From: Candidatus Woesearchaeota archaeon
Lineage (GTDB): Archaea; Nanobdellota; Nanobdellia; Woesearchaeales; ARS49
Reading direction: 5' to 3'
DNA: 64,000 nt
NCBI GenBank assembly: GCA_016203225.1
Contig: JACQNC010000012.1
Location: forward strand, 1-64,000
Each line of letters begins with the position of its first letter. The first letter of the stretch is position 1. The notes beneath the pieces are model-generated. The model was given only the letters and a program-made list of their open reading frames with translations. It was not told the DNA's origin and did not search any database. Below, piece after piece: positions 21,391 to 28,989 of the stretch. Both the position numbers and the translations under genes were made by a program.

Positions 21391-21983
21391 GTCTTCTTCG
21401 ATCTGTACACTCGATATCCTGACTGCCGCGCGATGGTCTCGACGTTGCCATAGACTTCTTCCATTTTCTGTTCGAACATCCTGCCGCCGACGTTGTGGCG
21501 CGCGACGAGCCAGAACTCGCCGTCCGTGTCCAATCGCGCCTTGCCATGCTCTATCATCTGGTTGCATAGTTCTCTGCCGGCGGTCTGGGGCGGGTTGAGC
21601 AGGATTGCGTCGAAGAACTCGTCCTTGACCGGCTCGTAGCTGTCGCCGGAGCGCACGTCGACTTCTACGCCGTTCAATGCAGCATTCTTCTTTGTCAACG
21701 TCACTGCACGTTTGTTCACATCAGTCAATACGACTGTGCATTGCGAACACGTCTTCTTTATCGCGATGCCCGCAGGGCCGTAACCGCAGCCTAAATCGAG
21801 GATGCGCATCCCGGGCGTCACGATGAATTCGTCGATCAGCAGCTGCGTCCCTTTGTCGATGCGCGTCTTTGAGAATGTGCCCGCCCCGGTCTCGAACACG
21901 AAATCGGCCCCCCGCAGATGTGCATGGATCAGCGATCTGGTGAACGCGGTCTTGTGTTTGCGCGCGTAATAGTGCTCGCTCAT
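21387..21983 (-). CDS. RsmC-like class I methyltransferase (MTS family)
   Basis: 198 residues from MSEHYYARKH; the longer track start lies inside the upstream gene. SAM motif I is ILDLGCGYGPAGIAI and the N6/N2-amino methyltransferase motif is NPPQ (LLNPPQTAG). The family methylates guanine N2 or related groups in rRNA or tRNA; the exact target is unknown. Start overlaps the upstream membrane protein stop by 4 bases. Confidence 0.88.
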   Translation of the reverse strand: MSEHYYARKHKTAFTRSLIHAHLRGADFVFETGAGTFSKTRIDKGTQLLIDEFIVTPGMRILDLGCGYGPAGIAIKKTCSQCTVVLTDVNKRAVTLTKKNAALNGVEVDVRSGDSYEPVKDEFFDAILLNPPQTAGRELCNQMIEHGKARLDTDGEFWLVARHNVGGRMFEQKMEEVYGNVETIARQSGYRVYRSKKT

Positions 21984-22672
21984 GCTGGTTTGGGGTCGAG
22001 GCTGGTGATGATTCCGTAGAACGTGTACACCATGCGGTCGACCGCGCGCACGAGCTCCTCGTCGTGGCCGCTGAGGATTATGCAGTCGTTCTTGAGGCGG
22101 ATGTTGGTCGTCAGGTTGACGTTGTTGAGCACGATGACCGAGACGTTCGGGGTGTCGCAATCGACGATCGGTCGCGTGGCGCAGGGTTCGGTCTCGTTCA
22201 CTAGACAGGCCGGGATGGTTTTCACGCCGATGGCGCGCACGAGGTTGAGGGATAGCTCGGCGGCGGCCAGCGCGACGTAAGCCTGGCTCTCGGGGCGCGG
22301 GTCGAACGTCACGTAGATGGTGTCGCGCTCGAATGTCGGGTTGATCCTGCCCGCGACAGAGATGTTGAGCGTCTGCAATGGATTATAATGCATGCTCAGG
22401 ATGTATTGTGTATCCTCGTTCTGCCAAAGGCTCCACCACAGGTCCTCTTTGTATTCGAACTCGAAGTTGTTGTAGGTGACGATCTCGCCGCGCGGCGGCT
22501 CGGGGGTGTAGAACGCGCGGATGGCGAACACGCCGATGACGAGCGCGACTATGATGCCGATCGCCCAGAGCAGGATCGTCGAGTTCGGCTCCTGTTCGGG
22601 GGGGACGTCAGGGATTGGCGCCTGCTTGGGTTCCCGCATCACGTCCTTGATCGTGTGATCCATCACGTCCAT
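21980..22672 (-). CDS. Membrane-anchored protein, paralogue of the next upstream gene
   Basis: 230 residues: a short charged N-terminus, one membrane helix (ILLWAIGIIVALVIGVFAI) and a large predicted extracytoplasmic domain. It shares with its upstream neighbour the order: YNxxxF strand, VTFDPRPESQ, a helix AYVALAAAELSLN, then CLVNETEPC and a C-terminal KDxCI segment. Three cysteines outside the membrane could form a disulphide. No known family recognised. Confidence 0.75.
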   Translation of the reverse strand: MDVMDHTIKDVMREPKQAPIPDVPPEQEPNSTILLWAIGIIVALVIGVFAIRAFYTPEPPRGEIVTYNNFEFEYKEDLWWSLWQNEDTQYILSMHYNPLQTLNISVAGRINPTFERDTIYVTFDPRPESQAYVALAAAELSLNLVRAIGVKTIPACLVNETEPCATRPIVDCDTPNVSVIVLNNVNLTTNIRLKNDCIILSGHDEELVRAVDRMVYTFYGIITSLDPKPA

Positions 22673-23256
22673 CAGTCCATCACTCCGAGCGCGATGAACA
22701 GAATCTTGTCCTGGATGCGGAGCACGTCCTCTCCGGCCGCGGCGGCTGCGGTGATGCAGGAATCCTTTATCGTGATGCTTGTTTCATCACCCTCGCCGAG
22801 GAGCAGCACCGGCTCGGTCGCGGTCGCGTTGACGCAGGAGAGCAGCGGAAGATTGTATGAATCATCTTCGGTGACCGCGGGTTGGACGTACGTGTTCCGG
22901 GAGCCGAGCACCTCCGCGAGATAGTACTGGGCTGCAGCCATGCTCTGGCTGTGGTTCGATGCTGGATCGTACGTGACGACCAGATATGGTCCTCTGACCA
23001 GCGCCGCGACGCCAGGGTCGGCCGGGATGCTCTCGACCTGGCTTGGGAAGAACGTGAAGCCGTAACGCACGCCGTCTATGGCCGCGAACACGCCGCGGGG
23101 CGTGCTGGTGAACTTTATGCCGTTGTAGCGCTGCGTTTTTCCGTCACCGGTCGAGCCTACGTAGAAGCCCGCGACGCTGAGCACCATCAGGATGACGATT
23201 ATCCAGCTCAGGATGCGTTTGCGCTTCGTTTGGCGCTGGTCTTCGTGATCGTGCAT
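22672..23256 (-). CDS. Membrane-anchored protein, paralogue of the next downstream gene
   Basis: 194 residues: basic N-terminus (QTKRKRILSW), one membrane helix, then an extracytoplasmic domain with YNGIKFTSTP, VTYDPASNHSQ, a helix AAAQYYLAEVLG, CVNATATEP and IKDSCI. The pattern matches the downstream gene, with which it shares 1 base. The TATAAAAAG box is centred 26 bp before the ATG. Function unknown; an envelope role is inferred from topology. Confidence 0.75.
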   Translation of the reverse strand: MHDHEDQRQTKRKRILSWIIVILMVLSVAGFYVGSTGDGKTQRYNGIKFTSTPRGVFAAIDGVRYGFTFFPSQVESIPADPGVAALVRGPYLVVTYDPASNHSQSMAAAQYYLAEVLGSRNTYVQPAVTEDDSYNLPLLSCVNATATEPVLLLGEGDETSITIKDSCITAAAAAGEDVLRIQDKILFIALGVMD

Positions 23257-23314
23257 GGTTGCGCTGCGCGGATGACGCTATAAAAAGATTGCTATGCGAA
23301 AACTATTTAAATGA

Positions 23315-23356
23315 TATCGGTTTCGATATATTGGTAATGATATATCGGTAACGATA
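23315..23356 (+). promoter_or_regulatory. Triple abutting operator for the PadR-type regulator
   Basis: Three 14-bp dyads follow each other without a gap: TATCGGTTTCGATA, TATTGGTAATGATA and TATCGGTAACGATA. They lie between the CTATTTAAA box (about 23304-23312) and the padR-like ATG at 23359, covering the expected transcription start. Binding there would block the whole ABC operon. Autoregulation by the adjacent PadR protein is inferred. Confidence 0.75.
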
Positions 23357-23358
23357 AT

Positions 23359-23847
23359 ATGGGCTGCCTCAGACTCGCCGTGCTCAGGCAATTGAGCAAG
23401 AGACCGCTTTCTGGCTACAGCATCATGCAGGCGATCACTGATGAGAGCGGTTGGAAGCCTAGCCCGGGCTCCATCTACCCCCTCTTGGCGTCGCTTGTCG
23501 GGGAGAATCTCGCGACGGTGAGATCACAGGGCAGGCGACGCATCTACGCGCTAACGAAGGAGGGCACGGATACGCTCCAGGAGCTGCTGGGCCAGAACCG
23601 TGCCCGCCTCGACAGATTGGCCAGCCAACTGAGGATCTGTTCCCCCCCTCTCGCGGACAAGGACAGGCTTGCGGTCATCGAACGCTTGTCCAAGGGTGAT
23701 GCGCCGTTTGGCTGGCTCACGCGGGATTTGCTCGAGCTGAGAAGGCTGGCCTTCGCGGTGACGACCAAGGATATCCGCGAAGGTGAGAGACGCGAGATAC
23801 GCAAGGCGATCGCTCTGCTGCTCGATGCGCTCAGGAGGGCCTCATGA
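23359..23847 (+). CDS. PadR-family transcriptional regulator
   Basis: 162 residues. The N-terminal winged helix shows the PadR pattern: LRQLSKRPLSGYSIMQAI, then PSPGSIYPLLASLVGENLATV and RRRIYALTKEGTDTL. The C-terminal half is helical, for dimerisation. It is the first gene of the export operon and starts next to three operator copies. PadR-type repressors often sense compounds that the controlled pump exports. Confidence 0.92.
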   Translation: MGCLRLAVLRQLSKRPLSGYSIMQAITDESGWKPSPGSIYPLLASLVGENLATVRSQGRRRIYALTKEGTDTLQELLGQNRARLDRLASQLRICSPPLADKDRLAVIERLSKGDAPFGWLTRDLLELRRLAFAVTTKDIREGERREIRKAIALLLDALRRAS

Positions 23848-24536
23848 CACAGACGGTCATCTCTTTGAAGGACGTCTGGAAAGTCTATCATATGGGCGAT
23901 GTCCGGGTGAATGCGCTCCAAGGGCTGAACCTCGACATCCACCAAGGGGAGTTCGTGAGCATCGTGGGACCATCTGGCTCCGGCAAGAGCACGAGCATGA
24001 ACATGATCGGCTGCCTCGACATTCCCACCAAAGGCCACATCTTTCTTTACGGGAAGGACATCGCACACCTGCACGAGTCCGACCTCGCGCAGATCCGCGG
24101 CAGGAGCATCGGGTTCGTGTTCCAGAAGTTCAACCTCATAAGCACGCTCACCGCGCTCGAGAACGTCACGCTACCCATGATGTTCCAGGACATATCACGC
24201 GAGGACGCGGAGGAACGCGCGCGGAGCTTGCTCACCAGGGTCGGGCTCGCGGATAGGATGCACCACCGGCCGAACGAGCTGTCCGGCGGCCAACAGCAGC
24301 GCGTCAGCATCGCCCGCGCGCTCGCGAACGATCCCGCGATCATACTCGCGGACGAACCCACAGGCAACCTTGACTCAGCATCAGGCGAACTGGTGATGGA
24401 TCTCCTGAAGAAGCTGCACGATGATGGGAAGACGCTTATCCTGGTAACGCACGAGGCTGAACTGGCGGACCAGGCGCAACGGAAATGCCTGCTCAAGGAT
24501 GGGAAGATAGTCAAGATCCAAAAACGGAGGGACTGA
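23844..24536 (+). CDS. ABC transporter ATPase, MacB/LolD type
   Basis: 230 residues. Walker A GPSGSGKST near residue 42, signature LSGGQQQRVSIARAL near 140, Walker B IILADEPTGNLDS, and the MacB/LolD hallmark DEPTGNLDS. It powers the two FtsX/MacB-like permeases encoded downstream. Start overlaps the padR stop by 4 bases. Confidence 0.95.
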   Translation: MTQTVISLKDVWKVYHMGDVRVNALQGLNLDIHQGEFVSIVGPSGSGKSTSMNMIGCLDIPTKGHIFLYGKDIAHLHESDLAQIRGRSIGFVFQKFNLISTLTALENVTLPMMFQDISREDAEERARSLLTRVGLADRMHHRPNELSGGQQQRVSIARALANDPAIILADEPTGNLDSASGELVMDLLKKLHDDGKTLILVTHEAELADQAQRKCLLKDGKIVKIQKRRD

Positions 24537-24538
24537 AC

Positions 24539-25780
24539 ATGAAGAAAGCAATGGCGCTGCTGGCGCTGCTCCTGATGCCTGCGGTGTTCGCGCAGGACTA
24601 CGCGAGCGGTCAGGTCGGCTCGTTGACGGCGGACCTGTACATAGTCGCGGCGAACTACGACCCCTCGCCCATCGTGCCGGGAAACTATGTTGACATCTGG
24701 CTGCGCGTCGAGAACCGGGGCGATACAGAGGCTCCTGATGTGGTCGTCTCGGTCTCCGAGGAGTTCCCGTGGCGAGCGATCGACGGACGCACCGTCGACC
24801 TGGGCAGGTTAGGCCCTAACTCCGCGGCCATCGCATCGTTCCGGTTGCTCGTGGACGGCGCTGCGCCCGGCGGCCCGACTCCGTTGCGCGTGCGCCTGCA
24901 GCGTTCTGCGCTGGACACGCCTGAGGTCGCGCAGCTCAGCGTTGATGTCGAACGTCTCGATGCCGTGCTGGCCATCCAGTCCGTGGTCGCAGAGCGTGTC
25001 GCTCCCGGCGAGACTTTCAATGTCGACGTCACGGTCGCGAACAGCGCGAGTTCCGTCCTCCGCGCGATCAAGGGCACTCTCCGGCTCTTGACGCAGGTGA
25101 CGACGACCGGCGGTTTGAGCACTGTCGAGCTCCCTTTCACACCCATCGGTGGAGGCATAGAGCGCACGGTGGATGCGCTCGCGCCCGGCGAGTCGCGCAC
25201 GATGCGTTTCACGCTCGTGGTGGATCCTGATGCGGAGAGCAAACCGTACAAACTGCCGCTGGAGATATCTTACTTCGACCCGAGCGGAACGAACAGGACC
25301 CGTCAGGAGGTCGTGGGGGTCATCGTGGGCGCCGATCCCGAGCTTTCGGTCGCGATTGACAGCACCGCGCTTTCCAGCGATACGACCACAGGGGACGTCA
25401 TCGTCCGTTTCGTGAATTACGGCGTGGGCGATATCAAGTTCCTCACGGCGCGCATGCAGGCGACGGATGAGTTCGTCATCGTGAGCTCGCCTGACGTGTA
25501 CGTGGGCAAGATCGACTCGGATGATTACGAGACCGCGGAATTCAGGCTGGCGTTGACGTCGGCCGCCGACGACCAGGTCGAGATCCCGCTTGTGATGGAA
25601 TACCGCGATGCGAACAACGACAAGTACAGCAAAGGCGTCAGCCTGACCGTGGTGCGGTACACCCCCAAGCAGCTTGGTACGCAACAGAGCAACACTTTGC
25701 TCGTCTTCTTCGTGGTGATCGTGCTCGGCGTGGTTGGCTGGTTCGCGTATAGGCGATTCAGGAAGAAGCGGGCGAAGTGA
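24539..25780 (+). CDS. Secreted, C-terminally anchored beta-domain protein of the ABC operon
   Basis: 413 residues from the ATG after GGAGG; the track start at 24485 is inside the ATPase gene. A clear signal peptide (MKKAMALLALLLMPAVFAQ) is followed by three or so immunoglobulin-like CARDB/COG1361-type segments (VDIWLRVENRGDTEAPDVVV, FNVDVTVANSASS) and a C-terminal membrane helix plus basic tail. It lies outside the cell and may take the place of a MacA-like periplasmic adaptor; that is inference. Confidence 0.85.
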   Translation: MKKAMALLALLLMPAVFAQDYASGQVGSLTADLYIVAANYDPSPIVPGNYVDIWLRVENRGDTEAPDVVVSVSEEFPWRAIDGRTVDLGRLGPNSAAIASFRLLVDGAAPGGPTPLRVRLQRSALDTPEVAQLSVDVERLDAVLAIQSVVAERVAPGETFNVDVTVANSASSVLRAIKGTLRLLTQVTTTGGLSTVELPFTPIGGGIERTVDALAPGESRTMRFTLVVDPDAESKPYKLPLEISYFDPSGTNRTRQEVVGVIVGADPELSVAIDSTALSSDTTTGDVIVRFVNYGVGDIKFLTARMQATDEFVIVSSPDVYVGKIDSDDYETAEFRLALTSAADDQVEIPLVMEYRDANNDKYSKGVSLTVVRYTPKQLGTQQSNTLLVFFVVIVLGVVGWFAYRRFRKKRAK

Positions 25781-26998
25781 ATGCTCGGGCAATCGTTCCT
25801 CTACGCTGCGCGCGGGCTCGCGCACCGGAAGCTGCGATCGTGGTTGACGATGCTGGGCATCTTCATCGGCATCGCGGCCGTCGTTGCGCTCATCAGCCTG
25901 AGCGAAGGGCTGAAGGTCGCGATCGATGAGCAGTTCTCCAAGATAGGGGCCGACAAGATATTCGTGCTGCCGAAAGGGACGTTCGGCGGGTTCGAGTCGG
26001 ACGCCGCGCGGCTCACCGTGAGCGACAAGGACCGGCTCGCGCGCATCCCGGGCGTCGACGAGGCGACGACTTACGTTTTCAAGGCGGGGTTGATCTCGCT
26101 TGAGGACGAGAACGTCCCTGTGTACGTGACCGGCATCCCCGAAGACGCCCAGGAACGCGCGCTCTCCATCGAGATAGGGACCTGGGAGATCGAGAGCGGC
26201 AAATGGTTCGATGGCGGCGATGGCGACAAAGTCGTGATCGGCAACGATTTCGCCCGCACGGAGATTCTTGATGATAGGCTGAAGCTCGGTGATTCCGTGA
26301 AGGTCAACGATGGCACGTTCGAGGTCGTAGGTATTCTGACGCGCATCGGCGACCCGAGCACGGATGGTGGCGTGTTCATCGACGAGGATATGATGCGTGA
26401 TGCGTTCGGGCTCGATGACGAGGAAACGAACTTCATCGGCGTCCGGCTGCAGCGAGGCGCGGACATCGCTGTCGTCCAGGAACGGATGGAGCGCGAATTG
26501 CGGAAGGCGCACGATGTCGATGAGGGCAAGGAGGACTTCGAGGTCCAGTCGCCTGAGGAGCTTTTGGCGACGTTCACCGCGATCTTCAACATCATCCAGG
26601 CCGTGCTGATCGGGATCGCGGCCATATCGCTGCTCGTGGGCGGGATCGGCATAATGAACACGATGTACACCGCTGTGCTCGAGAGGACACAGGAGATCGG
26701 CGTTATGAAGGCGGTCGGTGCGCGGAACAGGGATATCCTTTCGTTGTTCCTGTTCGAGTCGGGATTGCTCGGCATGGCTGGCGGTGTGGTGGGCATAGTT
26801 CTCGGCATGGGGTTGAGCAAGGGCGTGGAGCTCGTCGCTTCCCAGGTGTTCGGCAGCCCGCTCATCCGGGCGTTCTTCCCGATCTATCTGATCGTCGGCG
26901 CGCTGGCATTCGCGTTCTTCGTGGGAGTGCTGTCTGGTGTGCTTCCTGCGTACCAGGCTGCGCGGCTCCAGCCGGTTGATGCGTTGAGGTACGAATGA
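25781..26998 (+). CDS. MacB/FtsX-type ABC permease 1
   Basis: 405 residues: N-terminal helix with LRSWLTMLGIFIGIAAVVAL, a large MacB_PCD extracytoplasmic domain, then three C-terminal helices (ISLLVGGIGIMNTMYTAVLE and following). The end LQPVDALRYE is typical. It abuts the adaptor-like gene and overlaps permease 2 by 4 bases. It transmits ATPase force across the membrane rather than forming a channel. Confidence 0.93.
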   Translation: MLGQSFLYAARGLAHRKLRSWLTMLGIFIGIAAVVALISLSEGLKVAIDEQFSKIGADKIFVLPKGTFGGFESDAARLTVSDKDRLARIPGVDEATTYVFKAGLISLEDENVPVYVTGIPEDAQERALSIEIGTWEIESGKWFDGGDGDKVVIGNDFARTEILDDRLKLGDSVKVNDGTFEVVGILTRIGDPSTDGGVFIDEDMMRDAFGLDDEETNFIGVRLQRGADIAVVQERMERELRKAHDVDEGKEDFEVQSPEELLATFTAIFNIIQAVLIGIAAISLLVGGIGIMNTMYTAVLERTQEIGVMKAVGARNRDILSLFLFESGLLGMAGGVVGIVLGMGLSKGVELVASQVFGSPLIRAFFPIYLIVGALAFAFFVGVLSGVLPAYQAARLQPVDALRYE

Positions 26999-28215
26999 TC
27001 GGGTTCTATGCCTCGCTGGCGGTGACGACTTTCAAGAAGCGGAGATTGCGTTCGTGGCTGACGATGCTGGGCATCTTCATCGGCATCGCGGCCATCGTGT
27101 CGCTCATAAGTCTCGGGCAGGGCTTGAAGAACGCGGTCGGTGCGCAGTTCGCCGCTCTAGGGACGGACCGGATAATCATCCAGGCTAAGTCTTTGACGAT
27201 AGGGCCTCCGGGGCAGGGCAGCGTCGCGACGCTCACGCTCGATGATTTTGACCGGGTGGAGCGCGTTTCCGGCGTGGATGTTGCTGCGCAGCGCTTGCTG
27301 AAATCCGCGAAAGTGGAGTTCAATGACATCATCGATTTCACGTTTATCGCGAGCATGCCATCTGACGGGGAGAGCCGTAGGCTCATCGAGGAGATATTCA
27401 GGTTGCGGACTGCCACGGGGAGACTGATACAGCAGAATGACCGCGCGAAGGTCGTGCTGGGGAGCAATTATGCGGAGGGAGCTGTGTTCGGACGGGCGTT
27501 GCGCGCAGGCGACCGGTTGCGGATCAATGATGAGCCGTTCGAGATCGTGGGTGTGCTCGCGAAATCGGGGCAGCCACAGGTGGACAACACCATCCTTGCG
27601 CCGGAGGATGCCATGCGCGGGCTTTATGGCCTGCCTGATGAGGTGAACGCGATCGTGGTGCAAAGCCTGCCAGGTCAGGATCCTGAGGTCGTGGGCGACC
27701 GCATCATGCGCGAGCTGCGTAGGTTCCGCGATGTCGAGGAGAACCGCGAGGACTTCACGGTGCAGACGTCGGGACAATTGCTTGAAACGCTCGGCACGGT
27801 GCTCGACATCGTGACTGCTGTGCTGGCCGGGATCGCCGCGATCTCTCTGCTCGTGGGGGGGATAGGGATAACCAACACCATGTACACTTCGGTGCTGGAG
27901 CGCACGAACGAGATAGGCATAATGAAGTCCATCGGTGCCAAGAACAGGGACATCTTCTTCATATTCCTCATCGAGTCCGGGATTCTGGGGGTTGCGGGCG
28001 GGCTTATCGGCATCGTGCTCGGGATGGGGTTGAGCAAGACCGTGGAGGTCATCGCAGGACAGACGCTCGGCACTGGTTTGGTGCAGGCGTCCTTCCCGTG
28101 GTACTTGCTCCTCGGCGCGTTGGCGTTCTCGTTCATCGTGGGAAGCGTCGCGGGCACGTTCCCTGCGATGCAGGCGTCACGCTTAAATCCTGTGGACGCA
28201 TTGAGGTATCGATGA
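26995..28215 (+). CDS. MacB/FtsX-type ABC permease 2
   Basis: 406 residues, paralogue of permease 1 with the same topology and the shared N-terminal LRSWLTMLGIFIGIAAIVSL, mid segment AISLLVGGIGITNTMYTSVLE and C-terminus LNPVDALRYR. The two probably form a heterodimer with the single ATPase, a LolCE-like arrangement. Confidence 0.93.
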   Translation: MIGFYASLAVTTFKKRRLRSWLTMLGIFIGIAAIVSLISLGQGLKNAVGAQFAALGTDRIIIQAKSLTIGPPGQGSVATLTLDDFDRVERVSGVDVAAQRLLKSAKVEFNDIIDFTFIASMPSDGESRRLIEEIFRLRTATGRLIQQNDRAKVVLGSNYAEGAVFGRALRAGDRLRINDEPFEIVGVLAKSGQPQVDNTILAPEDAMRGLYGLPDEVNAIVVQSLPGQDPEVVGDRIMRELRRFRDVEENREDFTVQTSGQLLETLGTVLDIVTAVLAGIAAISLLVGGIGITNTMYTSVLERTNEIGIMKSIGAKNRDIFFIFLIESGILGVAGGLIGIVLGMGLSKTVEVIAGQTLGTGLVQASFPWYLLLGALAFSFIVGSVAGTFPAMQASRLNPVDALRYR

Positions 28216-28817
28216 TCCGCCACGCCATAAGCTGGATGCTGACTCTCGTGCTGCTCTCCTTGGCCGTGATAGCCGGTACGCAGCACGAATACCTGCACGC
28301 GTTGCTCGCGATCGTGGCTATCATCATCTCGTTCATCCCTTCGATCATCAAACGCAACTGGCACGAGCATCTGCCCTGGACTATGGAGTTGTTGTTGGTG
28401 CTCGTGATGACTTTGCACATCGGCGGCGGCGCGCTCGGTTTCTACACGACGTTCACGTGGTGGGACACCTTGACCCATTTCCTGGGGTCAGCGATCATCG
28501 CGCTGCTCGGATTCCTCGGCACGTTCGCGCTGTACGAGTCGGGGCGGATCCACGTCACCATCCGGATGATGGGCGTGTTCACGTTCTTCACGGCCATAGC
28601 CGTGGGCGCGATCTGGGAGATGGCGGAGTTCGCGAGCGACCAGCTGCTCGGCACGGACAACCAGCCTGATAACGCGGACACGAATCTCGATTTGATCACG
28701 GACACTCTCTCGGCAGGCGTAGTCGCAGTCCTAGGCGTCTGGTACCTGAAACACCTCCCGGAAGCCCGGATCGAACGCAACGTCGAGAAACTGCTGGAAC
28801 GGCTAGGAAGGATTTGA
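28212..28817 (+). CDS. Multi-pass membrane protein, last gene of the ABC operon
   Basis: 201 residues from ATG 28212 overlapping the permease stop. About six hydrophobic helices with conserved polar residues inside (TMELLLVLVMTLHIGGG, WWDTLTHFLGSA, AIWEMAEFASDQLLGT). The pattern resembles DUF2238/YjdF-like membrane proteins. Its stop codon lies in the left arm of a 13-bp inverted repeat. Function unknown. Confidence 0.75.
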   Translation: MIRHAISWMLTLVLLSLAVIAGTQHEYLHALLAIVAIIISFIPSIIKRNWHEHLPWTMELLLVLVMTLHIGGGALGFYTTFTWWDTLTHFLGSAIIALLGFLGTFALYESGRIHVTIRMMGVFTFFTAIAVGAIWEMAEFASDQLLGTDNQPDNADTNLDLITDTLSAGVVAVLGVWYLKHLPEARIERNVEKLLERLGRI

Positions 28818-28875
28818 ACCTTAAGCGCGACGTTTCCACTCATGAAAATCGAGGGCTTCCTACTTAAGGTTCAAA
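28814..28875. repeat. 13-bp perfect inverted repeat between ABC operon and tRNA-Thr
   Basis: Arms TTTGAACCTTAAG (28814-28826) and CTTAAGGTTCAAA (28863-28875) with a 36-nt loop. The left arm contains the stop of the membrane protein; the right arm ends exactly on the discriminator base of the convergent tRNA-Thr. It could be a bidirectional terminator or RNA-processing structure, or a scar of integration. Confidence 0.7.
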
Positions 28876-28989
28876 GCCTCCGGAGGGAGTTGCACCCTCG
28901 ACCTGCGGTTATTTCGGACAGCTGCGTTCGAGATCTCGGGCGCAGCCCGTTGTACGAAACCGCCGCTCTGGCTACTGAGCTACGGAGGC
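28875..28989 (-). tRNA. tRNA-Thr (CGU) with 42-nt intron
   Basis: Reading leftward: acceptor GCCTCCG/CGGAGGC with U73, D stem GCTC/GAGC, anticodon stem GCGGT/ACCGC, loop TTCGTA...A, T stem GAGGG/CCCTC. Exons total 73 nt. The 42-nt intron sits between positions 37 and 38, the canonical archaeal site, and itself folds (CTGCG/CGCAG with inner CGAGATCTCG). U73 and G1-C72/C2-G71 agree with archaeal tRNA-Thr. The T loop is TGCAACT, with G in place of U55. A TTTTAAAG box lies 26-27 bp upstream. Confidence 0.88.

Follow-up and report, generated by a model that had tools for sequence, protein, structure and literature searches.

A tandem array of abutting 14-bp palindromes as the predicted autoregulatory operator of a PadR lineage shared by archaea and bacteria

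Autoregulation of exporters by PadR-type regulators is well known. The classical operator of PadR, LmrR and LadR is ATGT-N8-ACAT, and that of cdPadR1 is TACT-N11/12-AGTA (PMC4517056, PMC5050560). The locus described here resembles these systems in combining a PadR-type regulator with palindromes in its own promoter, often in the control of a transporter; however, they carry one or two separated sites, whereas here TATCG and CGATA half-sites around a 4-bp centre make up two to five joined units. Among archaea, hsRosR of Halobacterium salinarum (TCGnCGACGAGnTCGnCGAC) shares a PadR-like fold, the TCG/CGA trinucleotides of the half-sites and a palindromic site close to start codons, but it is a protein of about 115 aa that governs a global oxidative-stress regulon through a single 20-bp site with another half-site spacing (PMC4287449). 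Several dimers on tightly spaced repeats in one promoter have been described for Escherichia coli NanR of the GntR family on (GGTATA)3, which suggests how cooperation among three neighbouring dimers might work, although NanR belongs to another protein family and its GGTATA motifs are direct repeats, while each unit here is a full palindrome (PMC8012715).

In the window, that is, the whole 64-kb stretch of Woesearchaeota DNA that was analysed, three 14-bp units of the form TATCG-N4-CGATA lie head to tail with a 0-bp spacer at 23315-23356, and the array ends 2 bp 5′ of the start codon (ATG, 23359) of a PadR gene. The features of the promoter and of the putative operon are as follows.

23297-23312, + strand: BRE/TATA-like promoter element, cgaaaactatttaaat, assigned from the sequence, with TTTAAA at 23306-23311; abuts the array
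23315-23328, no strand: putative operator unit 1, TATCGGTTTCGATA, 10/10 to TATCG-N4-CGATA
23329-23342, no strand: putative operator unit 2, TATTGGTAATGATA, 8/10 to TATCG-N4-CGATA
23343-23356, no strand: putative operator unit 3, TATCGGTAACGATA, 10/10 to TATCG-N4-CGATA
23359-23847, + strand: PadR transcriptional regulator, 162 aa, predicted array binder (Pfam PF03551, E 1.6e-13)
23844-24536, + strand: ABC transporter ATPase, MacB/LolD type (PF00005, E 6.6e-35)
24539-25780, + strand: predicted extracytoplasmic NEW3/CARDB adaptor (PF10633, E 1.4e-7; PF07705, E 2.5e-7)
25781-26998, + strand: MacB/FtsX-type permease 1 (PF12704, E 2.7e-29; PF02687, E 3.5e-22)
26995-28215, + strand: MacB/FtsX-type permease 2 (PF12704, E 3.7e-27; PF02687, E 3.9e-21)
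28212-28817, + strand: predicted multi-pass membrane protein, last gene of the putative operon; its reading frame overlaps the preceding stop codon

The three abutting units before padR are genuine. Scored against TATCG-N4-CGATA they total 28/30, a total not found a second time in the 64-kb window, and the highest three-unit total in 400 simulated windows, first-order Markov sequences of 64 kb each generated from the window's dinucleotide statistics, was 21. When no motif was presupposed, the 22 of 28 adjacent matches among the three 14-mers were the maximum of the window, with simulated maxima of 16-20. The intergenic region (23257-23358, 102 bp) has a G+C content of 0.36 versus 0.55 for the window, and inspection by eye found no ATGT-N8-ACAT inverted repeat within it, the palindromes seen there being the TATCG-N4-CGATA units. 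As the TATA-like TTTAAA (23306) stands 9 bp 5′ of unit 1, archaeal promoter geometry would place the transcription start near 23330-23336, within unit 2. A sigma-70-like match inside the array was disregarded since the host is an archaeon.

The genes of the PadR operon overlap or almost touch (23359-28817), with padR first in an ABC exporter operon and the array over its own promoter, which is the transporter-operon layout of PadR autoregulation. For the ATPase, the MacB and LolD models of NCBIfam score best, yet below their cut-offs; the adaptor has an N-terminal hydrophobic segment and a C-terminal membrane helix, as judged from sequence topology; and the last protein matched no family in Pfam or NCBIfam. 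Gene and Pfam annotation thus reproduces the order PadR-ATPase-adaptor-permease-permease-membrane protein given in the original prediction, whose proposal of a PadR operator region at this operon is likewise supported by the sequence, and whose statement that the array spans the transcription start holds for the start expected from promoter geometry. Divergent to the operon, at 21983-23256 on the minus strand, lie neighbouring genes for two predicted membrane-anchored proteins (about 230 and 194 aa) that are alike in design and have no family match, and beyond its end Rfam reports a 115-nt tRNA (28875-28989, minus strand) that is absent from the ARAGORN scan and probably contains an intron.

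The window PadR scores 50.9 bits against PF03551 (curated cut-off 27) and is the sole PadR above the Pfam cut-off in the 1.0-Mb genome. An AlphaFold2 model of the monomer, built from 55 sequences, all of which match PF03551, reached a pLDDT of 93.5 and has the order H-H-H-E-E followed by four C-terminal helices; the winged helix-turn-helix (wHTH) occupies residues 1-66, so modelled, and the C-terminal helices are predicted to mediate dimerisation, as in the PadR family. A Foldseek search with the model returned PadR structures as top matches, the first being B. subtilis PadR with operator DNA (5x11), with Rv3488, hsRosR and TA0346 among the further ones. B. subtilis PadR is the best match in both sequence-profile and fold comparison, and hsRosR too was matched in both. 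In BsPadR, Y20 and Y42 are the signature tyrosines contacting DNA (PMC6457526); the window PadR shares them as Y20 and Y40, at least 90% conserved among the 55 sequences, with the equivalence judged from alignment position. B. subtilis PadR differs in its length (188 aa), in the placement of its C-terminal domain and in its operator type, and the whole-chain superposition with 5x11 is poor (TM about 0.4).

Relatives were surveyed with a profile (A1) of 11 PadR proteins, seven from a protein search and four from array-bearing loci, so that the survey was partly non-blind to the motif. Run against 287 genomes of the order, it matched about 60 PadRs of the long type, with lengths of 153-191 aa, and many short PadRs of about 100 aa; the relatives are for the most part metagenome-assembled genomes. 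Counting the window itself and another two relatives, 63 long-type loci were collected, two of which stop at a contig edge, leaving 61 readable, and a unit was counted when it scored at least 7/10. Relatives that keep padR have not lost the repeats: two or more abutting TATCG-N4-CGATA units stand upstream of 55 of the 61 long-type genes, and the other six are variants. Two units are present in 38 arrays, three in 10, four in six and five in one, the arrays of four or five including L012, L015, L123, L126 and L136. Therefore, the 14-bp repeat step of the original prediction is genuine and conserved among related PadR genes, while its view of three copies as exceptional has to be given up, because the array-bearing lineage ranges from two to five with two the commonest.

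The arrangement is as regular as the motif. Among the upstream regions of the 63 long-type loci, sites are spaced by 14, 28 and 42 bp in 63, 24 and 10 pairs, and any other spacing occurs at most three times; both the 14-bp register and the 0-bp junction are strongly conserved across the long-type arrays. Information content is 1.0-1.8 bits per position in the half-sites and 0.1-0.6 bits in the four bases of the centre, and such conserved half-sites around a variable centre are the pattern of a protein site. The half-site identities persist though the PadR proteins share 21-35% identity with that of the window, which argues that selection, rather than recent ancestry, has preserved the operators. 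Of 28 related arrays in this order, 27 have an ATPase gene nearby.

PadR could nevertheless occupy such an array with each unit bound independently, the extra copies just raising local occupancy or resulting from drift, and we regard this as rather unlikely, though it is the strongest competitor. It would agree with a copy number free to vary from two to five between relatives and with inner units that are often weaker (8/10 in the window, 7/10 in L016); however, independence would not require the 14/28/42 register or a junction of exactly 0 bp, which was found in 30 of 37 perfect half-site pairs, and among the 61 loci a single isolated unit was never seen as a stable state. At the other extreme, the array could seed a longer PadR assembly, with copy number setting the threshold of a dose switch. 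The arrays of four or five units and the cooperative assembly of three NanR dimers on three repeats (PMC8012715) speak for such a filament, but the commonest state is two units, and we consider it improbable.

The 14-bp step is not absolute. The six variants have steps of 12, 13 or 15 bp, and one is weak: L115, L116, L138 and L141 have 15-bp units with an N5 centre, the left unit of L141 being the weak one; L113 has a pair of 14 + 13 bp; and L129 (G271:C110) has two separate double operators whose units overlap by 2 bp, giving a 12-bp step. L129 and its sister L135, which has two abutting 14-bp units, form a natural spacing series.

The array goes with one branch of the family. None of 40 upstream regions of short-type PadR genes in the same order has a good array (36 have nothing and four weak matches), and a phylogeny of 110 PadR proteins places 36 short PadRs apart from the lineage that carries arrays (support 100/100), while four divergent short PadRs fall on the array-lineage side on a long branch. 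Upstream of one short PadR gene (L022, G012:C9) there are repeated 16-bp units, TATCGGTTATGCGATA, which may represent a related operator whose centre is wider. A single-sequence search of GTDB contigs with the window PadR found no relatives, because even the nearest are only about 35% identical. The exact two-unit pattern, scanned across the genomes of 84,980 GTDB species, matched 26 stretches, and a PadR gene adjoins 24 of them. The archaeal members of these 24 belong to Woesearchaeota/Nanoarchaeota, Archaeoglobaceae, another euryarchaeon, Thermoplasmata and Lokiarchaeia, and the bacterial members to Clostridia and other Bacillota, Thermotogaceae and Caldisericota. The downstream operon is like that of the window in Woesearchaeota and different elsewhere; thus, the motif tracks the regulator and not the exporter.

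That the array serves another regulator, with PadR merely a neighbour, is very improbable in our estimate. The one observation in its favour is a GTDB match in a Clostridia contig (L060:7827-7854), where two abutting TATCGTATACGATA precede a gene judged MarR-like by eye from its translation, so that the palindromes are not exclusive to PadR and a similar tandem palindrome may serve another regulator family. Against it stand the GTDB matches adjoining PadR in two domains amid otherwise different neighbours, and the short PadR promoters of the same order, which go without a good array. The last of the 26 stretches, at L062:561-588, belongs with its further copies to a repeat dispersed in an Omnitrophota contig and is unrelated to PadR. 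An array-like pattern in L039, which falls in apparent coding DNA, was also set aside as due to chance or unrelated.

The position of the arrays against the core promoter is also consistent, with TATA boxes and -10/-35 elements identified as consensus matches. In 37 of 55 loci (67%), the array is preceded by a TATA-like 8-mer whose first base lies 4-18 bp 5′ of it, versus 12% for random positions in the same regions. In L122, L140, L108 and L110 the TATA box doubles as a unit in phase with the array, which reads TATTTATATAGATA in L122 and L140, and in one family (L091, L101, L103, L124, L130) the array lies just 5′ of the TATA box. In the Bacillota loci L059, L070, L074 and L075, a -10-like hexamer follows TTGACA by 17-18 bp, and the array sets in at its 3′ edge. 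For most archaeal repressors, binding takes place downstream of the pre-initiation complex (PMC4287449). That the arrays are placed alike in two transcription systems speaks for occlusion of the promoter.

Position against the promoter also bears on whether the array could act as RNA, with three small hairpins in a row in the 5′ leader. Each unit could fold into a stem of 5 bp with a loop of 4 nt, and the arrays mostly lie near the start codon; but the array located 5′ of the TATA box in the family of L091 would not be transcribed from that promoter, pairing is broken on one side in many units, for example TATCGAATCAAATA, and an Rfam scan of the leader gave no match, which together make this reading hardly credible.

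Based on these findings, we propose that the array is, very probably, the autorepressor operator of the PadR encoded directly 3′ of it, at which two to five PadR dimers side by side would block the promoter and keep the exporter inducible. We infer one PadR dimer on each 14-bp unit, with one winged helix per half-site. The recognition helices of PadR are about 34 Å (about 10 bp) apart (PMC5050560), a separation that fits the 9 bp between half-site centres within a unit and not the 5 bp across the junction. The alternative register, in which the unit would be CGATATATCG (CGATA|TATCG), was rejected for this 5-bp spacing, unfit for a PadR dimer, and because its outer half-sites are mostly missing: one step past the array, a half-site matching at least 4/5 occurs on the left in 6 and on the right in 3 of 55 arrays.

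With units end to end, neighbouring dimers would be adjacent, each rotated by about 120 degrees (arithmetic from 10.5 bp per turn), so that they could be neighbours without clash. The 'alternating faces' of the original prediction were therefore inexact, since three units would present three faces. Adjacent dimers would probably aid each other's binding. Abutment by itself does not imply cooperativity; the conserved register and junction are at most suggestive of spacing-dependent binding between neighbours, as in NanR, and with this precedent cooperative side-by-side binding is plausible. Bound PadR would exclude the polymerase machinery from the promoter, since the array lies against the TATA box and the expected start site falls within it, and would shut off padR together with the exporter genes. 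An inducer, perhaps a compound that is toxic or acts on membranes, or else a membrane signal, would then free PadR and turn the exporter on. More tentatively, and with some doubt on our side, this PadR lineage may use a modular, spacer-free operator code in archaea and bacteria, read by a cooperative spiral in which two to five copies tune the sharpness of the exporter response.

For one PadR lineage, the tandem array may thus be the standard operator, a predicted code rather than a local oddity. Our search of the open-access literature found no description of a tandem TATCG-N4-CGATA operator; we consider the operator type, palindromic units end to end in two to five copies in one PadR lineage of two domains, to be new, with priority uncertain. 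To our knowledge, few archaeal one-component regulators beyond model species have a known operator, and experimental genetics is almost absent for Woesearchaeota. A PadR binding code readable from sequence across archaea and bacteria would permit regulon prediction in uncultured lineages, and the natural series of two, three, four and five units with 12-, 14- and 15-bp steps is suited to a direct study of wHTH dimer cooperativity.

Within the window's own genome we claim no wider regulon, as the number of sites looks no higher than chance. The further sites mostly fall within coding sequence, and only L009, perhaps also L005, look intergenic. At L009:1501-1514 (G000:C14:7193), a single perfect TATCGAGAGCGATA lies in an apparently intergenic AT-rich stretch, and it is possibly a second PadR target or a chance occurrence.
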